The position numbers and the translations under genes were made by a program. The notes beneath the pieces are model-generated. The model was not told the DNA's origin and did no database searches. It worked only from the letters and a program-made list of their open reading frames with translations. A stretch of 64,000 bases of DNA from Nevskiaceae bacterium. GTDB taxonomy: Bacteria > Pseudomonadota > Gammaproteobacteria > Steroidobacterales > Steroidobacteraceae. Position 1 is the stretch's first letter. Every line of letters begins with the position of its first letter. Of this stretch, positions 23,934 through 32,632 are shown piece after piece. The DNA lies in contig VEQP01000002.1 in assembly GCA_018883185.1 (NCBI GenBank), positions 1 to 64,000 of the forward strand. The letters run 5' to 3'.

Positions 23934-24389
23934 TCAATTCGCCGTGTGTGCGCGCCGTCTGATGACGGCCATGGTCAGGCGGGACACACAGGTTAATTGA
24001 CCGGTTGAGTCGAACAACTCGATATTCCAGACCTGGCTGCGAGCCCCAGCGTGTAACAAGCGACCGACTCCTGTGACGACATCGCCTTCCTTGACTGGGC
24101 GCAGGTGGTTGGCGTTGATCTCCTGACCGACGGCGGCGTGGTCGTCATCGAGACAGGCGTTGGCGCCGACGCTGCCGATGGTCTCGGCGAGCGCGACCGA
24201 GGCTCCGCCGTGCAGGATGCGCCGCGGTTGTACCGTTCTGGCCGTGACCGGCATGCGTGCCTGCAGGTGATCTGCCGCGAGTTCGGTGAAGACGATGTCG
24301 AGGGTCTCGACCATCGTATCTTTGGCGAGTGCATTGAGGCGCTCGAGGGTGATGCCCGTGCGCCAGGGGATATCCCGGTACGTCGTCAT
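23934..24389 (-). CDS. Hotdog-fold thioesterase (PaaI/MenI type)
   Basis: 151 residues covering a single hotdog domain. The block RRILHGGASVALAETIGS holds the His-Gly-Gly and Glu of the PaaI/EntH/MenI thioesterases. These hydrolyse acyl-CoA or acyl-carrier thioesters, often as housekeeping enzymes that clear misprimed carriers. Its ATG overlaps the argH stop as ATGA, so it is translationally coupled to the arginine genes. No specific link to arginine is evident, although an acyl-CoA-dependent acylation pathway would give a thioesterase something to do (speculative). Confidence 0.82.
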   Translation of the reverse strand: MTTYRDIPWRTGITLERLNALAKDTMVETLDIVFTELAADHLQARMPVTARTVQPRRILHGGASVALAETIGSVGANACLDDDHAAVGQEINANHLRPVKEGDVVTGVGRLLHAGARSQVWNIELFDSTGQLTCVSRLTMAVIRRRAHTAN

Positions 24390-25612
24390 GGCTGCGGGGG
24401 AGCGTCGTCGCCTGTGCTGTCGTCGGTGGCACCCCGCAATTGCGCACCCACGCGGCGATACGCCTCGCGGAACGGAATGCCCTCGCGCACAACGAGCTCG
24501 TTGGCTCTCTCGGCAGCATGGATGGCCGGATCGAGGCGGATGTTGTCGGCACGAAAGCCCATCGCATCGATGGCGGGTACCAGTATCGCCGTGCTAGCCA
24601 GCGCCAGGTCGATGCCCCGAAACAAAGGCGCCTTGAGCAACTGTAGATCGCGTTGATAGCCCGAGGGCAGCTTGGCGACGATGCCGAGTGCCTCGAGCAG
24701 GCAGGCCTGAGCCGTAGCACTGCGCCCGCGCAGCAGCTCGAACACGTCGGGGTTGCGCTTCTGCGGCATGATCGATGAGCCCGTCGTGAATTCATCGGGC
24801 AAGTGCAGGAAGGCGAACTCCTGCGTGTAGAACAGGCACACGTCCGCCGCAAAGCGCCCGAGATCCTGCATCAGCAGTGTGATTTCAAACAGCAGTTGCG
24901 ATTCGGCCTTGCCGCGCGAGAGCTGCACGGCTGTTACCGGTTCGTGCACCACTTCGAAATCGAGTGCCTGACGCGTGGCTTCGCGATCGAGTGGCAGACC
25001 GGGAGTGCCATAGCCTGCTGCGGAGCCGAGTGGATTCTTGCCAATGCGTCGCTGCACGCTGCGCAGGCCCGCGGCATCGTCACGCAGCTCGGCGGCAAAG
25101 CCACCCGCCCACAACTCCACCGTGCTCGGCATTGCCTGTTGCATGTGCGTATAGCCCGGCAGTGCCAGATCACCCTCGCGCGCGGCGAGACGTGTCAGGG
25201 CGGCCGCGACGCTGTCGGCCGCATCGGCCAGTTGCAGTGTGGCATCGCGCAGATAGAGGCGTAGCGCAGTGAGTACCTGATCGTTGCGTGAGCGGCCAAG
25301 GTGCACACGCCCGCCTGCGGCACCAATCAGCGCGGTGAGACGCTTTTCGAGGGCGGTTTGTCCGTCTTCATCGGCAAGTTCGATGCGCCACTCGCCCTGC
25401 GCATGGGAAGCCGCCAGCGCTTCAAGGCCTTGCTCGATCGCTTCGCAATCGCCTGACGAAAGCAGGCCTTGATCGTGCAGCATCTGCGCATGCGCGATCG
25501 ACGCCCGTGCATCGTAGGCGACGAGTCGTTCGTCGAGGGTGTGATCTTCCCCTGCGGTGTAGTGCAGCACCCGCTCATCGAGCGGTGCGCCTTTGTCCCA
25601 CAGCCGACTCAT
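24386..25612 (-). CDS. argH: Argininosuccinate lyase
   Basis: 408 residues, about 50 shorter than typical ArgH; the C-terminus looks trimmed and ends in an acidic tail. Family blocks are all present: LGRSRNDQVLTALR, then LPGYTHMQQAMPST, then the signature GSSIMPQKRNPD with the flexible catalytic Ser. It splits argininosuccinate into arginine and fumarate, the last step of the pathway. The start overlaps the argB stop by 4 bases, and the next gene overlaps its own stop by 4 bases. Identification is firm; the short C-terminus is a mild oddity. Confidence 0.93.
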   Translation of the reverse strand: MSRLWDKGAPLDERVLHYTAGEDHTLDERLVAYDARASIAHAQMLHDQGLLSSGDCEAIEQGLEALAASHAQGEWRIELADEDGQTALEKRLTALIGAAGGRVHLGRSRNDQVLTALRLYLRDATLQLADAADSVAAALTRLAAREGDLALPGYTHMQQAMPSTVELWAGGFAAELRDDAAGLRSVQRRIGKNPLGSAAGYGTPGLPLDREATRQALDFEVVHEPVTAVQLSRGKAESQLLFEITLLMQDLGRFAADVCLFYTQEFAFLHLPDEFTTGSSIMPQKRNPDVFELLRGRSATAQACLLEALGIVAKLPSGYQRDLQLLKAPLFRGIDLALASTAILVPAIDAMGFRADNIRLDPAIHAAERANELVVREGIPFREAYRRVGAQLRGATDDSTGDDAPPQP

Positions 25613-26556
25613 GCGCTTGCGGGACCACCGGCGGCGAGTTCCGCCGGAGCGAGTTTCTGCACGTCGGCGACGACGAGCGTACCGGTGCCCTCGTTGGTGA
25701 ACACCTCAGCGAGGATCGCATCGGGCGATTTGTAGGAGATCACGTGCACGCGCTTGACTCCACCGGTGATGGCATTTTCGATGGCTTTGGCCTTCGGCAG
25801 CATGCCATCAATGATGCGCTTTTCCTGGCGCAGGCGTTGCAGCCCGGCGAGGTCGGTATAGGAAATCACGGAAGTGGGATCTTCGACATTCTGCAGGATA
25901 CCCGGGGCGCCGGTGCACAGCAGCAGCTTCTCGGCGCCGAGTGCAGCGCCGATGGCGGAGGCGACCGTATCGGCGTTGATATTGAGCAGGGTCCCGGCGT
26001 CGTCGCTCGAGAGCGGAGAGATCACAGGCATTAAACCGTTGTCGAGCAACTTACGGATCACGTCGGTGTCGATGTAGTCGATGTCACCGACCAGACCGTA
26101 GTCGACCATGCCATCGCCGGTCTGCAATTTCACCGGCGCACGCTTGCGTGCCTGCACGAGGCCGGCGTCCACGCCGCTGATGCCGATCGCGGGGATCTCG
26201 AGCTCGCGGCAGGCGGCGAGAATGCGCGTGTTGATGAGTCCGCTTAAGACCATGGCGGTGGCGTCGATGGAGCGCGCATCGGTGACGCGTCGCCCCTCGA
26301 TCATCTGCGTCGGCACGCCGAGTTTCTCGGTGACTTCGGTGAGCTGTGGGCCGCCGCCGTGCACGAACACTACACGGATGCCTAGCGAGTGCAGGATCGC
26401 AATCTGTTCGACGAGTCCTCGCGTTGCTTCGGGGTCGCCGAACACGCCGCCGCCCGCCTTCACAACGAAGGTCTTGCCCTTGTAGAGGCGGATGTACGGT
26501 GCAGCGCCGCGCAGTGCGCGAATGACGGCGGAAGGGTCAGCTCGGTGCATGATCAT
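25609..26556 (-). CDS. argB: N-acetylglutamate kinase (N-acylglutamate kinase)
   Basis: 315 residues from ATG 26556; a longer frame to 26667 has no kinase homology in its extra part. Amino-acid-kinase motifs: KTFVVKAGGG (phosphate Lys), FVHGGGPQ, and the acylglutamate-binding region MVLSGLINTRI. It phosphorylates N-acyl-glutamate. It is a free-standing kinase, unlike xanthomonad enzymes that carry a fused acetyltransferase (synthase) domain at the C-terminus; here the frame ends shortly after the kinase fold, so it cannot supply the first step. Upstream neighbour argF' is 28 bases away. Confidence 0.92.
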   Translation of the reverse strand: MIMHRADPSAVIRALRGAAPYIRLYKGKTFVVKAGGGVFGDPEATRGLVEQIAILHSLGIRVVFVHGGGPQLTEVTEKLGVPTQMIEGRRVTDARSIDATAMVLSGLINTRILAACRELEIPAIGISGVDAGLVQARKRAPVKLQTGDGMVDYGLVGDIDYIDTDVIRKLLDNGLMPVISPLSSDDAGTLLNINADTVASAIGAALGAEKLLLCTGAPGILQNVEDPTSVISYTDLAGLQRLRQEKRIIDGMLPKAKAIENAITGGVKRVHVISYKSPDAILAEVFTNEGTGTLVVADVQKLAPAELAAGGPASA

Positions 26557-26584: not shown

Positions 26585-27580
26585 TCAAGCGAGCAGGCGG
26601 TGCAACACCGCCATCTGCGCCGTGAGGCGGTTGTGCGCTTCGCGCAGCACGATGCTGCGCGGACCATCGAGCACTTCGTCGGCTACGGCCACATTGCGGC
26701 GTACCGGCAAGCAGTGCATGAACTTGCAATCCGGCGCCGCAGGGCCGAACCAGTCTTCGCGCACGCACCAGTCGGTGAGGTTCGCGCGCAGCGCGGCATC
26801 GCCTGCCGAGTCGCCGTAGTGGGTGGTCGAGCCCCATTCTTTGGCGTAGAGCACGTGAGCACCGGTGAGTGCGTCGGCGCGATCTTGCGTCTCGCGCACC
26901 GAACCGCCTGAGGCGGCAGCGGCGGCACGAGCCTTGTCCATGATCTCCGGGGGTAGCGCGTAGCCCTCGGGTCGCAGCACCACCACCTCCATGCCGCGTT
27001 GCGCTGCCATGTGCACGGTAGCCGCCGGCACCGCGATCGGGGTGACGCGCGGATGGTTGGCCCAGGAGAGGACGAACTTGGCGCGCTGTGGCATGCCGAT
27101 GTCATCCAAGGTCTTCCAGTCGGCGAGCGCCTGACAGGGATGATTGACCGCGGATTCGAGATTGATGAGCGGCTTGTCGACCACGCTCGCCATCGCCTTG
27201 AAATTAGTTTCCGCCAGATCGTGGCGCAGATCTTTGCCTTCGGCGAAGGCGCGTATGCCCAGTGCGTCGGCATAGGAGGCGAGCACCGGCAGCCCTTCGC
27301 GGACGTGCTCGGCCGCAGCACCATTCATGATGGCGCCGACTCGTGATTCGAGTTGCCAGGTGCCCTGCCCAGGCGTGATCACGAACGACGAGCCACCGAG
27401 TTTGGTCATGCCGACCTGAAACGATGCGAGTGTGCGCAGCGAGGGGTTGAAGAATACGAGGCCGAGTATTTTCCCCGCGAGTGCGCGCGGCTCCGGATGC
27501 TGCTCAAGACGCCGCGCAAGCGCGAGCAGATCGATGATTTCCTCGCGCGAGAAGTCGGCCAGATCGAGAAAGCGTTTCAT
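26585..27580 (-). CDS. N-acylornithine carbamoyltransferase (ArgF' type)
   Basis: 331 residues. It is not the ordinary ornithine enzyme: the carbamoyl-phosphate block is FFNPSLRTLASF, then IMNG...EH, then HCLPVRRNV, the pattern of acetyl- and succinyl-ornithine carbamoyltransferases. The residue that, as I recall, separates the two (Glu92 in the Xanthomonas acetyl enzyme, Pro90 in the Bacteroides succinyl enzyme) corresponds to Ala90 here (sequence AAEH). It would make N-acyl-citrulline, which needs a later deacylase; none is encoded nearby. The start overlaps the argD stop as ATGA. Confidence 0.88.
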   Translation of the reverse strand: MKRFLDLADFSREEIIDLLALARRLEQHPEPRALAGKILGLVFFNPSLRTLASFQVGMTKLGGSSFVITPGQGTWQLESRVGAIMNGAAAEHVREGLPVLASYADALGIRAFAEGKDLRHDLAETNFKAMASVVDKPLINLESAVNHPCQALADWKTLDDIGMPQRAKFVLSWANHPRVTPIAVPAATVHMAAQRGMEVVVLRPEGYALPPEIMDKARAAAAASGGSVRETQDRADALTGAHVLYAKEWGSTTHYGDSAGDAALRANLTDWCVREDWFGPAAPDCKFMHCLPVRRNVAVADEVLDGPRSIVLREAHNRLTAQMAVLHRLLA

Positions 27581-28725
27581 ATTTCCTTCAGTGCATCGCG
27601 CAGGATGTCGACGTGTTCTTCTTTGAGGATGTACGGCGGCAGCAAGCGCAGTACGAAGGGGTCGGCGCTGGTGCCGACCAGGATGTCGCGCTTCAGCAGT
27701 TCCTGTTGGATGTCCTTGGCAGGCCGCACCATGCGCAAGCCATGCAGAAAACCCCGACCCTGATGTCCACCGACCGGCCCGACCGTGCAGGTTTCGCGTA
27801 GGTACTCGGATACCCGGCGAACGTTGTCCATGAGGTTTTCGGTTTCGATCGCCGCAATCGTGGCTTCGATGGCGGCGCAGGCCATGGGACCGCCACCAAA
27901 GGTCGTGCCCAGCCCCTCCATCTTGAGCGCGTTGGTCACATGCGGACTCATCAACAAGGCGCCGCAGGGGAAGCCGTTGCCGAGCGCCTTGGCGGTGGTG
28001 AGCATGTCTGGCATCAAGGTGTAGAGGTTCGCGGCAAAGGGCCAGCCGCTGCGTCCCATACCGATCTGCACTTCATCGAAGATCAGCATCGCGCCGACTT
28101 CGTTGCAGCGTTTGCGCAAAGCCTCGAGGAACTTGGCGCCCATGTCGTAAGCCCCACCGACGCCCTGCACGGGCTCGACGATGACTGCTGCCGTGTTGCG
28201 ATCGATCTTGATTGGGATCGCGTCGATCTTGCCGCGCGGGATGAACGAGGCAGCGAAGGGCATGCGCGGGAACTCATACCATTTCTGCGCAGCGCCCCAG
28301 GTCACGGCGCCGGCCGCTGCCGTGCGGCCGTGAAAGGAGCCTTCGACTGCAACGACGCCTGTGCGGCGCGTCACGCGGAACGCCATGCGCAAGGCGTTTT
28401 CGTTGGCCTCAGCGCCCGAGTTGACGAAGAACACGCTATCGAAATAATCGCCGGCGAAGCGCACGAGATTGGCGGCCGCGCGGACGCGCACGGCCATCGG
28501 TACCGCGTTGCTCTGGAAATTGCATTCCATCGCCTGCTTGGTGATGGCACGAGTCCAGCCCGGATGCTTGTAGCCGAGCGCAGCCACCGCGTGCCCGCCA
28601 TAGAGATCGAGGATCTTGCGACCGTCCGAGGTGTGCAGCCAGACGCCTTCGGCGTCGACCACGTCCATGGGGTATTGCGCGAAGACCGGTGCAAGCCGGT
28701 TCGGATATTCTTCTTCGGAGCTCAT
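27577..28725 (-). CDS. argD: N-acylornithine aminotransferase
   Basis: 382 residues from ATG 28725, which overlaps the argC stop as ATGA. This is a fold-type I PLP enzyme of class III: the N-terminal LDLYGGHAVAALGYKHPG block, the VNSGAEANENALRMA helix, the phosphate-loop SFHGRTAAA, IFDEVQIGMGRSG, and the PLP Lys in TTAKALGNGFPCG. It interconverts N-acylglutamate semialdehyde and N-acylornithine. Acyl preference cannot be read from sequence. It is coupled to argC upstream and argF' downstream. Confidence 0.92.
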   Translation of the reverse strand: MSSEEEYPNRLAPVFAQYPMDVVDAEGVWLHTSDGRKILDLYGGHAVAALGYKHPGWTRAITKQAMECNFQSNAVPMAVRVRAAANLVRFAGDYFDSVFFVNSGAEANENALRMAFRVTRRTGVVAVEGSFHGRTAAAGAVTWGAAQKWYEFPRMPFAASFIPRGKIDAIPIKIDRNTAAVIVEPVQGVGGAYDMGAKFLEALRKRCNEVGAMLIFDEVQIGMGRSGWPFAANLYTLMPDMLTTAKALGNGFPCGALLMSPHVTNALKMEGLGTTFGGGPMACAAIEATIAAIETENLMDNVRRVSEYLRETCTVGPVGGHQGRGFLHGLRMVRPAKDIQQELLKRDILVGTSADPFVLRLLPPYILKEEHVDILRDALKEI

Positions 28726-29804
28726 GTCCATCCCGCTGCGGGAGCCGTCAAGCCCGCGGTTTCCGGCAGATCGAACAGGCGATTCATCCATTGTACGGCG
28801 CCGCCTGCAGCGCCTTTGTTCAAGTTGTCGATGACGCAGGTCACGGCCACCGTGCGCCCATTGCCGATGACCGACAAGTGCGCGTAATTGCTGGCGACGA
28901 TATCTTTGAGTCGCGGTGCCGTATCGAGTACGCGTACGAACGGCGAGTGCGCATAGAACTCACGCAAGCGGGCCAACAGACTCGCCGTATCGAGCGGTGC
29001 GCCGTGCGTCGGAGTCTTCAGGCTCGCCTGCACCGTTGCGTGAATGCCGCGCGCGAACGGGCCCGAGTGAGGCACGAAGGCGAAATCGGCAGTGACGCCG
29101 CTCGCGGCGGCTGCACAGGCCGTGATTTCGGGGATGTGTCGGTGGACGAGTGCATTGTACGAGTAGAGGTCGCTGTGACGAGTCGGATGGTGTGTGCCAT
29201 CGACAGGCTTGCGCCCGGACCCGGTGCTGCCGGTGATGCCGCTGACGAATAGCGTCGGCGTGACGAGATCGAGTGCCAGCAGCGGCACCGAGGCGAGGAG
29301 GATCGCCGTAGCGAAGCAGCCGGGGTGCGCCACGTGCTGCGTCGGGGCCTTGGGCAGATGCTCCGGCACCGCGCAGGTGAAGTCCTGGATGCGCGCCGGC
29401 GCGCCATGCGCATGCTTATAGACCGATGCGTAGGCGTCGGCCGTGCTGTAACGATAGTCGGCGGAGATGTCGACCACTCGCGGCCGTGTGCCTGCAGCCT
29501 CTGCGGCAGAGAGCAGGCGATCGATGAGCGCGGCGCTGACGCCGTGCGGTGCCGCCGAGAACACGGCGCTCCGCGGATGCTGCGCGAGCTGGTCGCGGAT
29601 CTGCTCTTCGCTCGAGAAGCGAAGATCGCCGAGCACGGCGGCCAAGTGGGGAAACGCCTTGCCGACCGGTTCGCCGGGTTGCGAGTCCGACATCACCCCC
29701 GCGAGCTCGAAGTGCGGGTGCGCGAGCACGAGCCGCAGCACTTCGCCGGCTACGTAGCCGGTGCCACCGAGGATCAGGGTTGGAATGCGCGCGCTCATGT
29801 CCAT
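28722..29804 (-). CDS. argC: N-acyl-gamma-glutamyl-phosphate reductase
   Basis: 360 residues. An NAD(P)-binding start (ILGGTGYVAGEV) leads to the catalytic Cys163 in AHPGCFATAILL and later SGITGSTGSGR. The usual motif in enterobacterial ArgC is PGCYPT; the PGCFAT form here recalls enzymes from N-acyl-citrulline pathways (from memory). It reduces N-acylglutamyl-5-phosphate to the semialdehyde. It lies 41 bases after the DUF1611 gene, the largest gap within the argG-argH block. Confidence 0.92.
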   Translation of the reverse strand: MDMSARIPTLILGGTGYVAGEVLRLVLAHPHFELAGVMSDSQPGEPVGKAFPHLAAVLGDLRFSSEEQIRDQLAQHPRSAVFSAAPHGVSAALIDRLLSAAEAAGTRPRVVDISADYRYSTADAYASVYKHAHGAPARIQDFTCAVPEHLPKAPTQHVAHPGCFATAILLASVPLLALDLVTPTLFVSGITGSTGSGRKPVDGTHHPTRHSDLYSYNALVHRHIPEITACAAAASGVTADFAFVPHSGPFARGIHATVQASLKTPTHGAPLDTASLLARLREFYAHSPFVRVLDTAPRLKDIVASNYAHLSVIGNGRTVAVTCVIDNLNKGAAGGAVQWMNRLFDLPETAGLTAPAAGWT

Positions 29805-29845: not shown

Positions 29846-30925
29846 TCAGTGCGCCGCGACCACCGGGAATTTCCCGGCGAGGCCGATCGCCTCGATCACG
29901 CAGTCGCCGAGCGCCGCGCCATCGCTCAAGGCATTGAAGGCGGGCACATTCATCTGCTGACGGATGATGTCGACGCCAACCGCATTGTCAGTGGAGGGGC
30001 CGGTGACCGCGCAAGGCTCTACCTTGAAGCGCTCGCGCAGCAGTTTTACGCCGCCCCAGGCAGCGACTGGATCGTTGGCCGACAGCACGACACCTGTTAA
30101 TGCACTGCGGATGTCGGCGCAATCGAGGATGGCATCGACGCCATAGGTACCGAGGATGCCATCGCCGAGTTCGAACACGATGACGTCGGGTTTCTTGGCG
30201 GCAAGTTCCGTGATCATGGTCCGCGTAAGGGCGGGGCCCACGGCCCGTGTGGTGGTGATCACGCCGAGATCGGTGAAGATCATCGAGTGGCGCGCACCCG
30301 CATCTTCCATGGCGAGGATGTCGCGACGCAGCGAAACACCGGTGGCTTTGAAGCAATCGACCACGAGGCCCCGGTGACGCATGCGGCTGACCATGGCGCA
30401 GGCGGCGGCAGTTTTGCCGGCCTCCATGCAGGTGCCTGCGAGGGCGACGACCGGTACGCCCTGTGAGTCGAGCGGCGCTTCGAAGTCGAGTTTGCGAAAG
30501 CCTGCCCGTGCGGGTACGCCGATGCGCTCGCCGAGATACGGGAAGGTGAGCACGACGCCGAGCACGCGACACTCGAAGGGCTTGCCGTGCTGCGGGTTGG
30601 CCGAATCGCAGATGCCGAGCACGCCGCCAATATTGAGCATGTTGATGATATCGCCCGCTGCGAGGGTCGGCGGCACGTGACCCGAGTAGCCGAACAGTGC
30701 TTTGCGGTGCCCGAGCGCACCGACGACGATGTCGCCTTTGTTGACCTTGGCCATACGGCCGCTCGTCAGTTCAAGCGTGTTGTAGCTCGACTTGCTGGTC
30801 AGCACCTCGACCACCACGACCACGCCCTCCTCGGAAGGCAGGTTCTCCGTGGCAATGCGCACCTCATGCCCGAGACCGCAGGCCTGCGTGATGGATGCGA
30901 TCTTGTCGACGACGATGGTTCTCAT
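29846..30925 (-). CDS. DUF1611 (DgcN-like) protein within the arginine operon; candidate N-acylglutamate synthase
   Basis: 359 residues from ATG 30925, overlapping the argG stop as ATGA and with GGAGAAGG upstream. The N-terminal domain (about 1-145) precedes a P-loop-like domain with GTCMEAGKT at 164-172 and later blocks FKATGVSLR, DVIVFELGDG and VLSANDPVAAWGG, the DUF1611 (PF07755) pattern. I recall that a DUF1611 member, DgcN, was reported as a D-glutamate N-acetyltransferase. Every other enzyme step from N-acylglutamate to arginine except the deacylase is encoded here, but no ArgA/ArgJ is, so this protein may perform the missing acylation of glutamate. Family membership is likely; function is inference. 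Confidence 0.75.
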   Translation of the reverse strand: MRTIVVDKIASITQACGLGHEVRIATENLPSEEGVVVVVEVLTSKSSYNTLELTSGRMAKVNKGDIVVGALGHRKALFGYSGHVPPTLAAGDIINMLNIGGVLGICDSANPQHGKPFECRVLGVVLTFPYLGERIGVPARAGFRKLDFEAPLDSQGVPVVALAGTCMEAGKTAAACAMVSRMRHRGLVVDCFKATGVSLRRDILAMEDAGARHSMIFTDLGVITTTRAVGPALTRTMITELAAKKPDVIVFELGDGILGTYGVDAILDCADIRSALTGVVLSANDPVAAWGGVKLLRERFKVEPCAVTGPSTDNAVGVDIIRQQMNVPAFNALSDGAALGDCVIEAIGLAGKFPVVAAH

Positions 30926-32142
30926 TGTTTTGCCTTCTCCGCTGCACGTTCGCCGGCACGGCGATGAAACACTCCGGTCAAACCGACGATGCGCGAAAAG
31001 CCGAGCGCATCGGCCGCCGTCCACTCGCCTGTCGCCTCGCCGTAGACACCCTTGGAGGCCGCCATCAGCGAGTAGGGGGAATCGACGCCCTCGATGAATG
31101 CTGAGCCAGGGCGCAACAGCACGTTGACCGTGCCGGTGACGCGCTGCTGCGATTGCAGCAACAGCGCTTCGATGTCGCGACAAACCGGATCCAGCAACTG
31201 GCCTTCGTGCACCCAGTCGCCATAGGGTCCCGCGAGCATTTCTTTGATGCGCTGCTGCCGGCCGGTCAGCACGAGTTTTTCGAGTTCGCGATGGGCATTG
31301 AGCAGGATCTCTGCCGCCGGTGCCTCGAACGCCACCCGACCCTTGGTGCCGATGATGGTGTCGCCCAGGTGAATCCCTCGGCCGATGCCATAGGGTCCGG
31401 CGATCGCCTCGAGTGCCTCGATGACTTCGACGGGCGAGCGGTCGACGCCGTCGAGCCCGGTGGGCACGCCCTGCGTGAAGTGCAGGACGTGACGCTCCGG
31501 TGCACGCGGCTGGCTGAAAGCATCGCGCGAGAGCACCCAGGCTTCATCCGGAATGCTGCCCTGCGAGGTCAGCGTTTCTTTGCCGCCTATGCTCACGCCC
31601 CAGAGGCCACGATTGATCGAGTACGCCGCGCCGAACGGCGGCACCGGCAGTTGCCGCGCCTGCAGGAAATCGAGTTCTTCCTGGCGCTTGAAGTTCCGAT
31701 CGCGCACCGGCGCGATGATTTCGAGTTCGGGGGCCAACGTGCGCAGCGCGACTTCGAAGCGCACTTGATCGTTGCCTGCGGCCGTGCAGCCATGGGCGAT
31801 GCTGCCGGTACCGAGCTTTCTCGCCATCAGCGCAATGGTTTGCGCCTGCATGACGCGCTCAGCACCGACGCAGAGCGGGTACAGCTGACCGCGACGCACG
31901 TTACCCATGATGAGGAAACGCAGCACCTGCTCGAAGTAGTCCGCGCGTGCATCGATCTGGTGGTGCTCGCTCGCACCGAGGGCGAGGGCCCGCTCGTGCA
32001 GGGTGCGGGCCGTGGCCGCATCGATGCCACCCGTATCCACCGTGACGGTGATGATCGGGCGCTGATACTGCTCCTTGAGCCAGGGAACGAGAAATGAGGT
32101 GTCGAGACCGCCTGAGTAGGCGAGGACGATAGGCTGGGACAT
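30922..32142 (-). CDS. argG: Argininosuccinate synthase
   Basis: 406 residues, normal length. The PP-loop LAYSGGLDTSF is at the N-terminus (ATG 32142, AAGGA 8 bases upstream; the longer frame to 32307 runs through argR and is not real). Other family blocks: GCTAAGNDQVRFE and YSINRGLWGVSIGG. It joins citrulline and aspartate using ATP. It starts ten bases after the argR stop and is translationally coupled to the DUF1611 gene. Confidence 0.95.
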   Translation of the reverse strand: MSQPIVLAYSGGLDTSFLVPWLKEQYQRPIITVTVDTGGIDAATARTLHERALALGASEHHQIDARADYFEQVLRFLIMGNVRRGQLYPLCVGAERVMQAQTIALMARKLGTGSIAHGCTAAGNDQVRFEVALRTLAPELEIIAPVRDRNFKRQEELDFLQARQLPVPPFGAAYSINRGLWGVSIGGKETLTSQGSIPDEAWVLSRDAFSQPRAPERHVLHFTQGVPTGLDGVDRSPVEVIEALEAIAGPYGIGRGIHLGDTIIGTKGRVAFEAPAAEILLNAHRELEKLVLTGRQQRIKEMLAGPYGDWVHEGQLLDPVCRDIEALLLQSQQRVTGTVNVLLRPGSAFIEGVDSPYSLMAASKGVYGEATGEWTAADALGFSRIVGLTGVFHRRAGERAAEKAKQ

Positions 32143-32152
32143 GCGGGGATCC

Positions 32153-32602
32153 TTAGAGGCGAAACAGCTCGCGCAAGCGCGCGACGAGGGCCGTTTGCGC
32201 AGCCCCGGTATCGGTGGCGATGAAGATGGTGTCATCGCCGGAAATAGTGCCGACCACCTCGGGCCAGGCGGCTTTGTCGATGGCCGCGGCGACGCTTTGA
32301 GCGGCACCGATCGTAGTGCGCAGCACTGTCAGGGCGCTGCCCGCGGTGGCTACGCCACGTACAAACTGGCGCAGGGTACCGAAGTCATCGAGGCTGCGAT
32401 TGGCGTCATCGGGCGGCAGGTAGCGCCCGCCGGCCTTGAGCACCCCGAGATCGCGCAAATCGCGGCTGATCGATGACTGGGTGGCCTCGTGACCCTCGTC
32501 TCGCAAGCGACGCACGAGCTCATCCTGCTTGCGCACGGGCGCCGCGCGCAGGATGCGCAAGATGGCCGAGCGGCGGGTGTTGCTGTGGAGGTCGGCGTGC
32601 AT
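32153..32602 (-). CDS. argR: Arginine repressor
   Basis: 149 residues from ATG 32602 (seven more if ATG 32623 is used). The N-terminal winged helix contains TQSSISRDLRDLGV, close to the SQ/TVSRxL recognition helix of ArgR, and the C-terminal oligomerisation domain has SGDDTIFIATDT, the GDDT arginine-binding region. Neither start has a clear Shine-Dalgarno. Two operator-like sites lie over the start, so autoregulation of the whole operon is likely. It is the first gene of the arginine operon and almost touches the M48 protease gene upstream. Confidence 0.9.
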   Translation of the reverse strand: MHADLHSNTRRSAILRILRAAPVRKQDELVRRLRDEGHEATQSSISRDLRDLGVLKAGGRYLPPDDANRSLDDFGTLRQFVRGVATAGSALTVLRTTIGAAQSVAAAIDKAAWPEVVGTISGDDTIFIATDTGAAQTALVARLRELFRL

Positions 32603-32632
32603 AAAGTTGCACGCATTATGCATATTAATGCA
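32598..32632. promoter_or_regulatory. Two ARG-box-like operators, 21 bases apart
   Basis: TGCATAAAGTTGCA (32598-32611) and TGCATATTAATGCA (32619-32632) are 14-base imperfect palindromes with TGCA ends. Their start-to-start distance of 21 bases equals the usual phasing of paired ARG boxes bound by an ArgR hexamer. They cover the argR start and the stop codon of the upstream protease gene, so the operon promoter must lie inside the end of that gene. Confidence 0.6.

Follow-up and report, generated by a model that had tools for sequence, protein, structure and literature searches.

A conserved P-loop protein encoded between argG and argC as a candidate N-acylglutamate synthase in Steroidobacteraceae and related genomes

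The Xanthomonas-type acetylated pathway of arginine synthesis comprises an N-acetylornithine transcarbamylase (AOTCase), the deacylase ArgE and a fused NAGS-kinase. Acylation of glutamate is also the reaction of DgcN, a member of the DUF1611 family, reported to be a D-glutamate N-acetyltransferase. For the succinylated pathway of the Bacteroidetes, ArgA2 (BT3761) is described as an annotated GNAT with genetic support in Bacteroides (PMC9026213) and BT3549, the proposed desuccinylase, as less than 30% identical to DapE (PMC7311316). ArgA3, another proposed replacement, is described as a homologue of an N-acetylcysteine deacetylase (PMC9026213, PMC7311316). Here we present the sequence features, the conservation and the genomic context of a gene, designated X, that lies within an arginine operon and whose product is a candidate for the first step of the pathway. 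Among the matches listed in the open-access literature, no paper describing X was recognised.

Gene X was found in a stretch of 64,000 nucleotides (the window), which belongs to a genome assembly of 2.8 Mb in 71 contigs with a completeness of 89.6%. The operon has the order argR-argG-X-argC-argD-argF'-argB-argH, followed by a gene for a hotdog thioesterase, and lies on a single strand throughout (Table 1). All genes other than X were identified with Pfam and NCBIfam, argD and argR scoring below the NCBIfam cut-offs and above the Pfam cut-offs. As read from the window sequence, the stop codon of argG and the start codon of X share a 4-base ATGA overlap; according to Pfam, ArgB consists of the kinase domain only. 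The original prediction had placed X within a tight arg operon, overlapping argG, with argC next downstream and with a stand-alone argB, and this placement was confirmed.

Table 1. Features of the arginine operon in the window
Feature	Position	Strand	Basis and remarks
gene X, candidate N-acyl(succinyl)glutamate synthase	29846..30925	-	359-aa ORF from the ATG at 30925 to a stop codon that ends at 29846; P-loop GTCMEAGKT; predicted dethiobiotin-synthetase-like C-terminal domain from about residue 155
argG, argininosuccinate synthase	30922..32142	-	Pfam, NCBIfam; ATGA with X; start codon picked by eye
argR, arginine repressor	32153..32623	-	Pfam, NCBIfam
argC, N-acyl-gamma-glutamyl-phosphate reductase	28722..29804	-	Pfam, NCBIfam
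argD, acylornithine aminotransferase	27577..28731	-	Pfam, NCBIfam; start codon picked by eye
argF', N-acylornithine transcarbamylase	26585..27580	-	Ala/Pro/Ala at X. campestris Glu92/Asn185/Lys302; Ala and Pro at 92 and 185 are of the succinylornithine type
argB, stand-alone N-acylglutamate kinase without GNAT/NAT domain	25609..26550	-	start codon picked by eye
argH, argininosuccinate lyase	24386..25612	-	Pfam, NCBIfam
hotdog-fold thioesterase, overlaps argH	23934..24389	-	Pfam, NCBIfam

The locus resembles the succinylated pathway of the Bacteroidetes (ArgA2, SOTCase) in that neither ArgA nor ArgJ was found, ArgF' carries succinyl-type residues, a candidate synthase is encoded within the operon and the candidate desuccinylase is related to DapE. 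It differs in that ArgA2 is annotated as a GNAT, whereas X belongs to the P-loop proteins and gave no GNAT hits, and in that BT3549 was proposed as the desuccinylase there, whereas DapE itself is proposed for the genomes that carry X (X genomes). Judged by its domain hits, which set it apart from both, X is neither ArgA2 nor ArgA3. The second system for comparison is the operon of G012, a genome of the same class that lacks X; we take this operon to represent the Xanthomonas-type acetylated pathway. Like the X operons, it clusters ArgF', ArgG, ArgB, ArgC and ArgH, but its ArgB carries a fused NAT domain, an M20 deacylase is encoded within it and its ArgF' is of the acetyl type, and the X operons are without these.

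Matches to X at E ≤ 0.001 were obtained in 19 of 274 genomes of the class. Six of these (from families f1, f2, f41 and f119) carry a member of the close X clade (E of 1e-75 or better), in all six within the arrangement argG-X-argC; the other 13 yielded distant side-clade matches only. A scan of a larger collection returned at least 378 relatives of X, the 80 closest of which were kept as named loci and therefore over-represent near kin. Among these best 80 of at least 378, argG-X-argC is present in 78, the remaining two (L101 and L058) being cut by contig ends; argG lies upstream in 79 and argC downstream in 79, and an overlap of 4 bases between argG and X is more frequent than any other spacing, being present at 21 of 79 loci. 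By their titles, the same 80 loci stem from metagenome-assembled genomes (MAGs) assigned to Gammaproteobacteria, Proteobacteria, Pseudomonadota, Steroidobacteraceae or Steroidobacter and from one isolate, Peristeroidobacter agariperforans; three MAGs titled otherwise (two Klebsiella pneumoniae, one Janthinobacterium lividum) are presumably misnamed. In a sample of 398 genomes of the phylum, three matched X at E ≤ 1e-30, i.e., the window genome, G554 and G578. The gene order in G578, which lies outside the class, is argR-X-argC-argB, so the linkage to arginine genes has outlived a rearrangement; the match in G554 is a side-clade relative adjoining an M20 hydrolase gene. Seven plasmid records contain relatives of X with identities of at most 31.1%, and 42 pattern matches in viral contigs included no relative of X.

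The arrangement argG-X-argC exceeds chance, and X almost certainly has a role in arginine synthesis. The linkage is not confined to the window genome, a point for which a survey had originally been proposed. That X is a local insertion was ruled out by the occurrence of the arrangement across the six class genomes and the 78 named loci. A homologue of the hotdog thioesterase that overlaps argH is present at 25 of the 80 named loci, many of these loci being truncated; the thioesterase might act on a substrate related to the acyl-CoA that the first step would use.

In the 89.6% complete assembly of the window genome, no ArgJ match (PF01960) was found, and the ArgA profile matched only the kinase ArgB, below the cut-off; a normal argA or argJ elsewhere in that genome, for which the original prediction had suggested a search, was thus not found. 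Because this assembly is incomplete to that extent, 56 X genomes were searched, comprising the genomes of 50 of the 80 named loci, chosen mainly for longer contigs, and the six class genomes, to which the available completeness figures are confined. ArgA was above the cut-off in none of the 56 and ArgJ in one (G298), where the match is a 98-aa fragment at a contig end. Since the ArgA cut-off misses fused NAGS-kinases (the fused kinase-NAT protein of G012 reaches 78 bits on the ArgA profile versus a cut-off of 203), the C-terminal tails of ArgB were measured as well. In none of the 65 X loci whose ArgB end is complete does a NAT-sized tail follow the kinase: fewer than 40 residues lie beyond the matched kinase in 64 of them, compared with 154 in the fused control G012, and in the 65th, L035, the stop codon directly follows the kinase. 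An apparent 303-residue tail of the L035 protein was dismissed as an alignment-end artefact. X itself matched neither a GNAT or NAT domain (Pfam, NCBIfam) nor PF01960. Apart from the ArgJ fragment, the genomes and ArgB tails searched agree with the lack of ArgA, ArgJ and a fused synthase that had been noted for the operon. On both genomic counts, a normal argA or argJ elsewhere and a linkage limited to this genome, the outcome favoured the original prediction.

An unrecognised GNAT encoded elsewhere in the genome might be the synthase, in which case X would be an accessory protein acting in regulation, complex assembly, substrate channelling or nucleotide-dependent control. We regard this as fairly unlikely. 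The window genome has 12 PF00583 GNAT loci, ten of which were scanned (L134 and L138 were left out, and the scan covered PF00583 alone). None of the ten reached an ArgA-type cut-off; the best similarity was that of a protein identified as RimI (28 bits with the CG3035 synthase model, whose cut-off is 280), followed by L132 (25 bits, cut-off 180). When 59 genomes were searched with the ArgA profile, hits to its acetyltransferase part were weak and occurred in some X genomes only, the window genome not being among them. Unusual synthases do exist, as exemplified by the Bacteroidetes GNAT ArgA2, which was proposed from genome context and has genetic support (PMC9026213, PMC7311316), but the gene of that synthase is itself reported to lie inside the arg operon (PMC9026213). 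Since X is conserved in arg operons of genomes in which ArgA and ArgJ were not found (one fragment excepted), the most parsimonious interpretation is a non-homologous replacement of ArgA/ArgJ at the first step. This part of the original prediction is supported by operon conservation; the family membership from which it had been derived is unsupported.

That membership was expressed in the label DUF1611-type, and from the activity of DgcN it had been argued that the fold can acylate glutamate. The label reflects a sub-threshold P-loop similarity: on PF07755, X scores 15.7 bits versus a gathering cut-off of 25, within residues 157-196 only, and it is absent from the matches of a PF07755 search in its own genome. 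The N-terminal domain DUF1611_N (PF17396) gave no hit in X at E ≤ 10. With hhalign, X matched DgcN at a probability of 29% over 43 columns around the P-loop and of 13% over 97 columns, the last of which lie in the P-loop. An ordinary DUF1611 protein was ruled out by the sub-threshold PF07755 score, the lack of PF17396 and the P-loop-centred profile match, and the argument from the fold, which depends on DUF1611/DgcN membership, is unsupported by the Pfam cut-off. A remote relation of X to DUF1611 is possible because one of three side-clade relatives, L009, passes the PF07755 cut-off (29.5 bits; the others score 21.0 and 20.2 bits, below it). The side clades alone matched DgcN at a probability of 15% over 172 columns, and among the plasmid relatives two are named 'DUF1611 domain-containing' and one 'dethiobiotin synthase' by NCBI. 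X and DgcN have in common a dethiobiotin-synthetase-like P-loop domain and, if the proposal for X is correct, action on the amino group of glutamate; X is unlike DgcN in its Pfam and profile scores and in the end of the P-loop, which is an invariant GKT in the X family versus GKK in the DgcN consensus.

A true DUF1611 protein (PF07755, 225 bits, plus PF17396) is encoded elsewhere in the window genome, and a profile of 16 proteins led by it matched DgcN (PDB 7xrj) at 1.6e-140. Its DgcN-type gene and an adjacent gene of the enolase superfamily, presumably dgcA, are located on contig C27 (L001:1090-3107). The same genome has one more PF07755 match, a weak one (L002 on contig C53), which scores 24.3 bits, or 31.8 bits with its frame neighbours, and the X genome G299 has ten PF07755 matches. 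A DgcN-DgcA pair is described as able to yield N-acetyl-L-glutamate (PMC11747546); this pair could accordingly supply N-acetyl-L-glutamate from D-glutamate in the window genome, with X doing something else. Strong PF07755 matches (E < 1e-50) are present in only 20 of the 56 X genomes, however, and in none of G040, G118 and G234, by which such a pair was ruled out as the general N-acetylglutamate supplier, and we hold this explanation to be highly improbable.

The wider X-family profile, compared with PDB, matched dethiobiotin synthetase (BioD) best (E 7.6e-4) and also MobB, in both cases around the P-loop; a full-length PDB relative of X was not found. A structure prediction for X had a mean pLDDT of 70.5, with residues 1-61 below 50 and only the C-terminal domain modelled well. 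The predicted fold of that domain is equally close to CTP synthase, DUF1611 proteins, dethiobiotin synthetase and DgcN (tied at Z of about 15 to 17). X has a P-loop of the form G-x5-GKT together with the predicted DTBS-like C-terminal fold. In 21 diverse members of the family, the P-loop residues G164, M167, G170, K171 and T172 are invariant, and G34, D65, R74, G101, G123, K193, G196, D202, G210, A211, F217, D219, G221, T225, E252 and G309 are common to all. X thus resembles dethiobiotin synthetase, CTP synthase and MobB in its P-loop and predicted C-terminal fold, but it differs from them in a poorly modelled N-terminal region of about 150 residues, additional to the P-loop domain, and in that no full-length sequence match was obtained. 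The likeness to dethiobiotin-synthetase-like P-loop proteins is a superfamily resemblance, not membership in one family. An acyltransferase relation of X is not established by sequence, the nearest PDB matches being P-loops.

The neighbourhoods of the side clades are of other kinds. One side clade (L036:5399-7603, L038 and L143) directly adjoins an M20 hydrolase gene of the PRK07338 / glutamate carboxypeptidase group and may have another role in N-acyl amino acid metabolism. Another (L199, L200, L201, L202, L203 and L037) has, directly downstream, a gene that is ABC exporter-like by sequence and comprises about 566-578 codons. Given these different neighbours, the X family is one without a single known chemistry.

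The nature of the acyl group was approached through ArgF'. AOTCases and SOTCases differ at three positions, with Glu92, Asn185 and Lys302 in the former versus A/S/P/V/Q, P and V/I/E in the latter, as given in a review (PMC4581275). The diagnostic columns were fixed by alignment with the AOTCase of X. campestris and its mutants in PDB. ArgF' of the window has A/P/A at positions 92/185/302; among the other class X genomes, G017 has A/P/A, G167 A/P/V, G040 P/P/E and both G234 and G118 V/P/E. Positions 92 and 185 are thus of the succinyl type in all six, and position 302 is V or E in four and Ala in the window genome and G017. An ArgF' match was obtained for 67 of the 80 named loci (13 were without), one of which is unreadable at the diagnostic columns; the 66 readable loci all have Ala at position 92 and Pro at position 185, and position 302, readable in 65, is Ala in 64 and Val in one. 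At E ≤ 1e-40, an N-acylornithine transcarbamylase is present in nine of the 274 class genomes, i.e., the six with X and G012, G165 and G153; G012 and G165, both without X, have E/N/K. Counter-evidence comes from G153, where X is lacking, ArgF' is of the succinyl type (A/P/A) and a full ArgA is present (574 bits). The ArgF' gene of G153 (L145:2-910) is not part of an arg operon and adjoins a gene for an MBOAT-like membrane O-acyltransferase, named by reading its translation.

An alternative is an acetylated pathway with X as an N-acetylglutamate synthase, i.e., the same replacement of the first enzyme with a different acyl group. ArgF' of the window exceeds the cut-off of the NCBIfam N-acetylornithine carbamoyltransferase model (346 bits, cut-off 288), and its Ala302 is outside both published sets (Lys in AOTCase; V/I/E in SOTCase) and hence not the typical succinyl-type residue. 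Set against the succinyl-type residues at positions 92 and 185 in six of six class X genomes and in 66 of 66 readable named loci, an acetyl group appears quite unlikely. Because of its succinyl-type residues, ArgF' points to succinyl as the most likely acyl group, which the original prediction had left open.

The deacylation step is the second vacancy, as ArgE, too, is missing from the operon: it was not recognised in the eight X genomes examined, and none is encoded in the X operons. In G012, the kinase-NAT fusion (PF04768, 161 bits) and the M20 deacylase of the operon fill both vacant steps. The sole M20 protein of the ArgE/DapE subfamily in the window genome is DapE (572 bits, cut-off 284); two more M20 proteins resemble amidohydrolases and carry apparent signal peptides, and the remaining ones look exported or belong to other types, all as read from the translations. 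Each of seven further X genomes also has a homologue of DapE (identity 42-81%), so that DapE occurs in eight of eight in total. When the 33 M20 matches of these seven genomes were clustered, with three weak ones left out, DapE formed the sole group represented in all eight X genomes; a mixed amidohydrolase group was present in at least seven of the eight, and G040, G118 and G234 have an amidohydrolase-type M20 without an obvious signal peptide. Within the M20 family, to which the search was directed, DapE is therefore not the sole possible deacylase. It is nevertheless a candidate that may double as N-succinylcitrulline desuccinylase, and a succinyl-specific deacylase in common with lysine synthesis would agree with a succinylated pathway.

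With two steps vacant, X could fill the deacylation step instead, either by deacylating N-acylcitrulline or by an ArgJ-like transfer of the acyl group from N-acylcitrulline to glutamate, which would close the cycle. For the former speak the failure to recognise ArgE, the window genome having DapE as its only ArgE/DapE-subfamily M20 protein, and the M20 deacylase of the Xanthomonas-like G012 operon, which has no counterpart in X operons; a P-loop domain would be odd for a deacylase, however, and DapE, a desuccinylase by family, is available. The latter would account for both vacancies with one gene, but a pure recycling enzyme still requires a primary synthase. Taken together, a function of X at this step is judged unlikely.

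We consider it moderately probable that arginine synthesis in these genomes is succinylated and that X serves as its N-succinylglutamate synthase in place of ArgA/ArgJ. In the proposed sequence of reactions, X would convert L-glutamate to N-succinylglutamate, from which ArgB, ArgC and ArgD would form N-succinylornithine; ArgF' would carbamoylate this to N-succinylcitrulline, and desuccinylation, possibly by the DapE of lysine synthesis, would release citrulline for ArgG and ArgH. The reaction of X could be a succinyl-CoA-dependent transfer or, as in enzymes of the dethiobiotin synthetase type, an ATP-dependent activation of succinate; the latter is plausible because of the invariant GKT, as opposed to the GKK of the DgcN consensus. 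As a more specific and tentative possibility, X may represent a new N-acylating class, i.e., an N-succinyl-L-glutamate synthase of the dethiobiotin-synthetase-like P-loop type, which might be an ATP-dependent ligase acting on free succinate instead of a CoA transferase, in a pathway that has DapE (perhaps also ArgD/DapC) in common with lysine synthesis and occurs in Steroidobacteraceae and some other proteobacterial families.

Replacement of the first enzyme is an established theme of arginine synthesis (ArgA, ArgJ and the proposals of ArgA2 and ArgA3), to which X would add an unrelated fold. If the proposed function is true, it would fill a gap that would make dozens of genomes resemble arginine auxotrophs in annotation; a succinylated route to arginine would then exist in the Gammaproteobacteria, and one branch of an uncharacterised P-loop family would gain a function.
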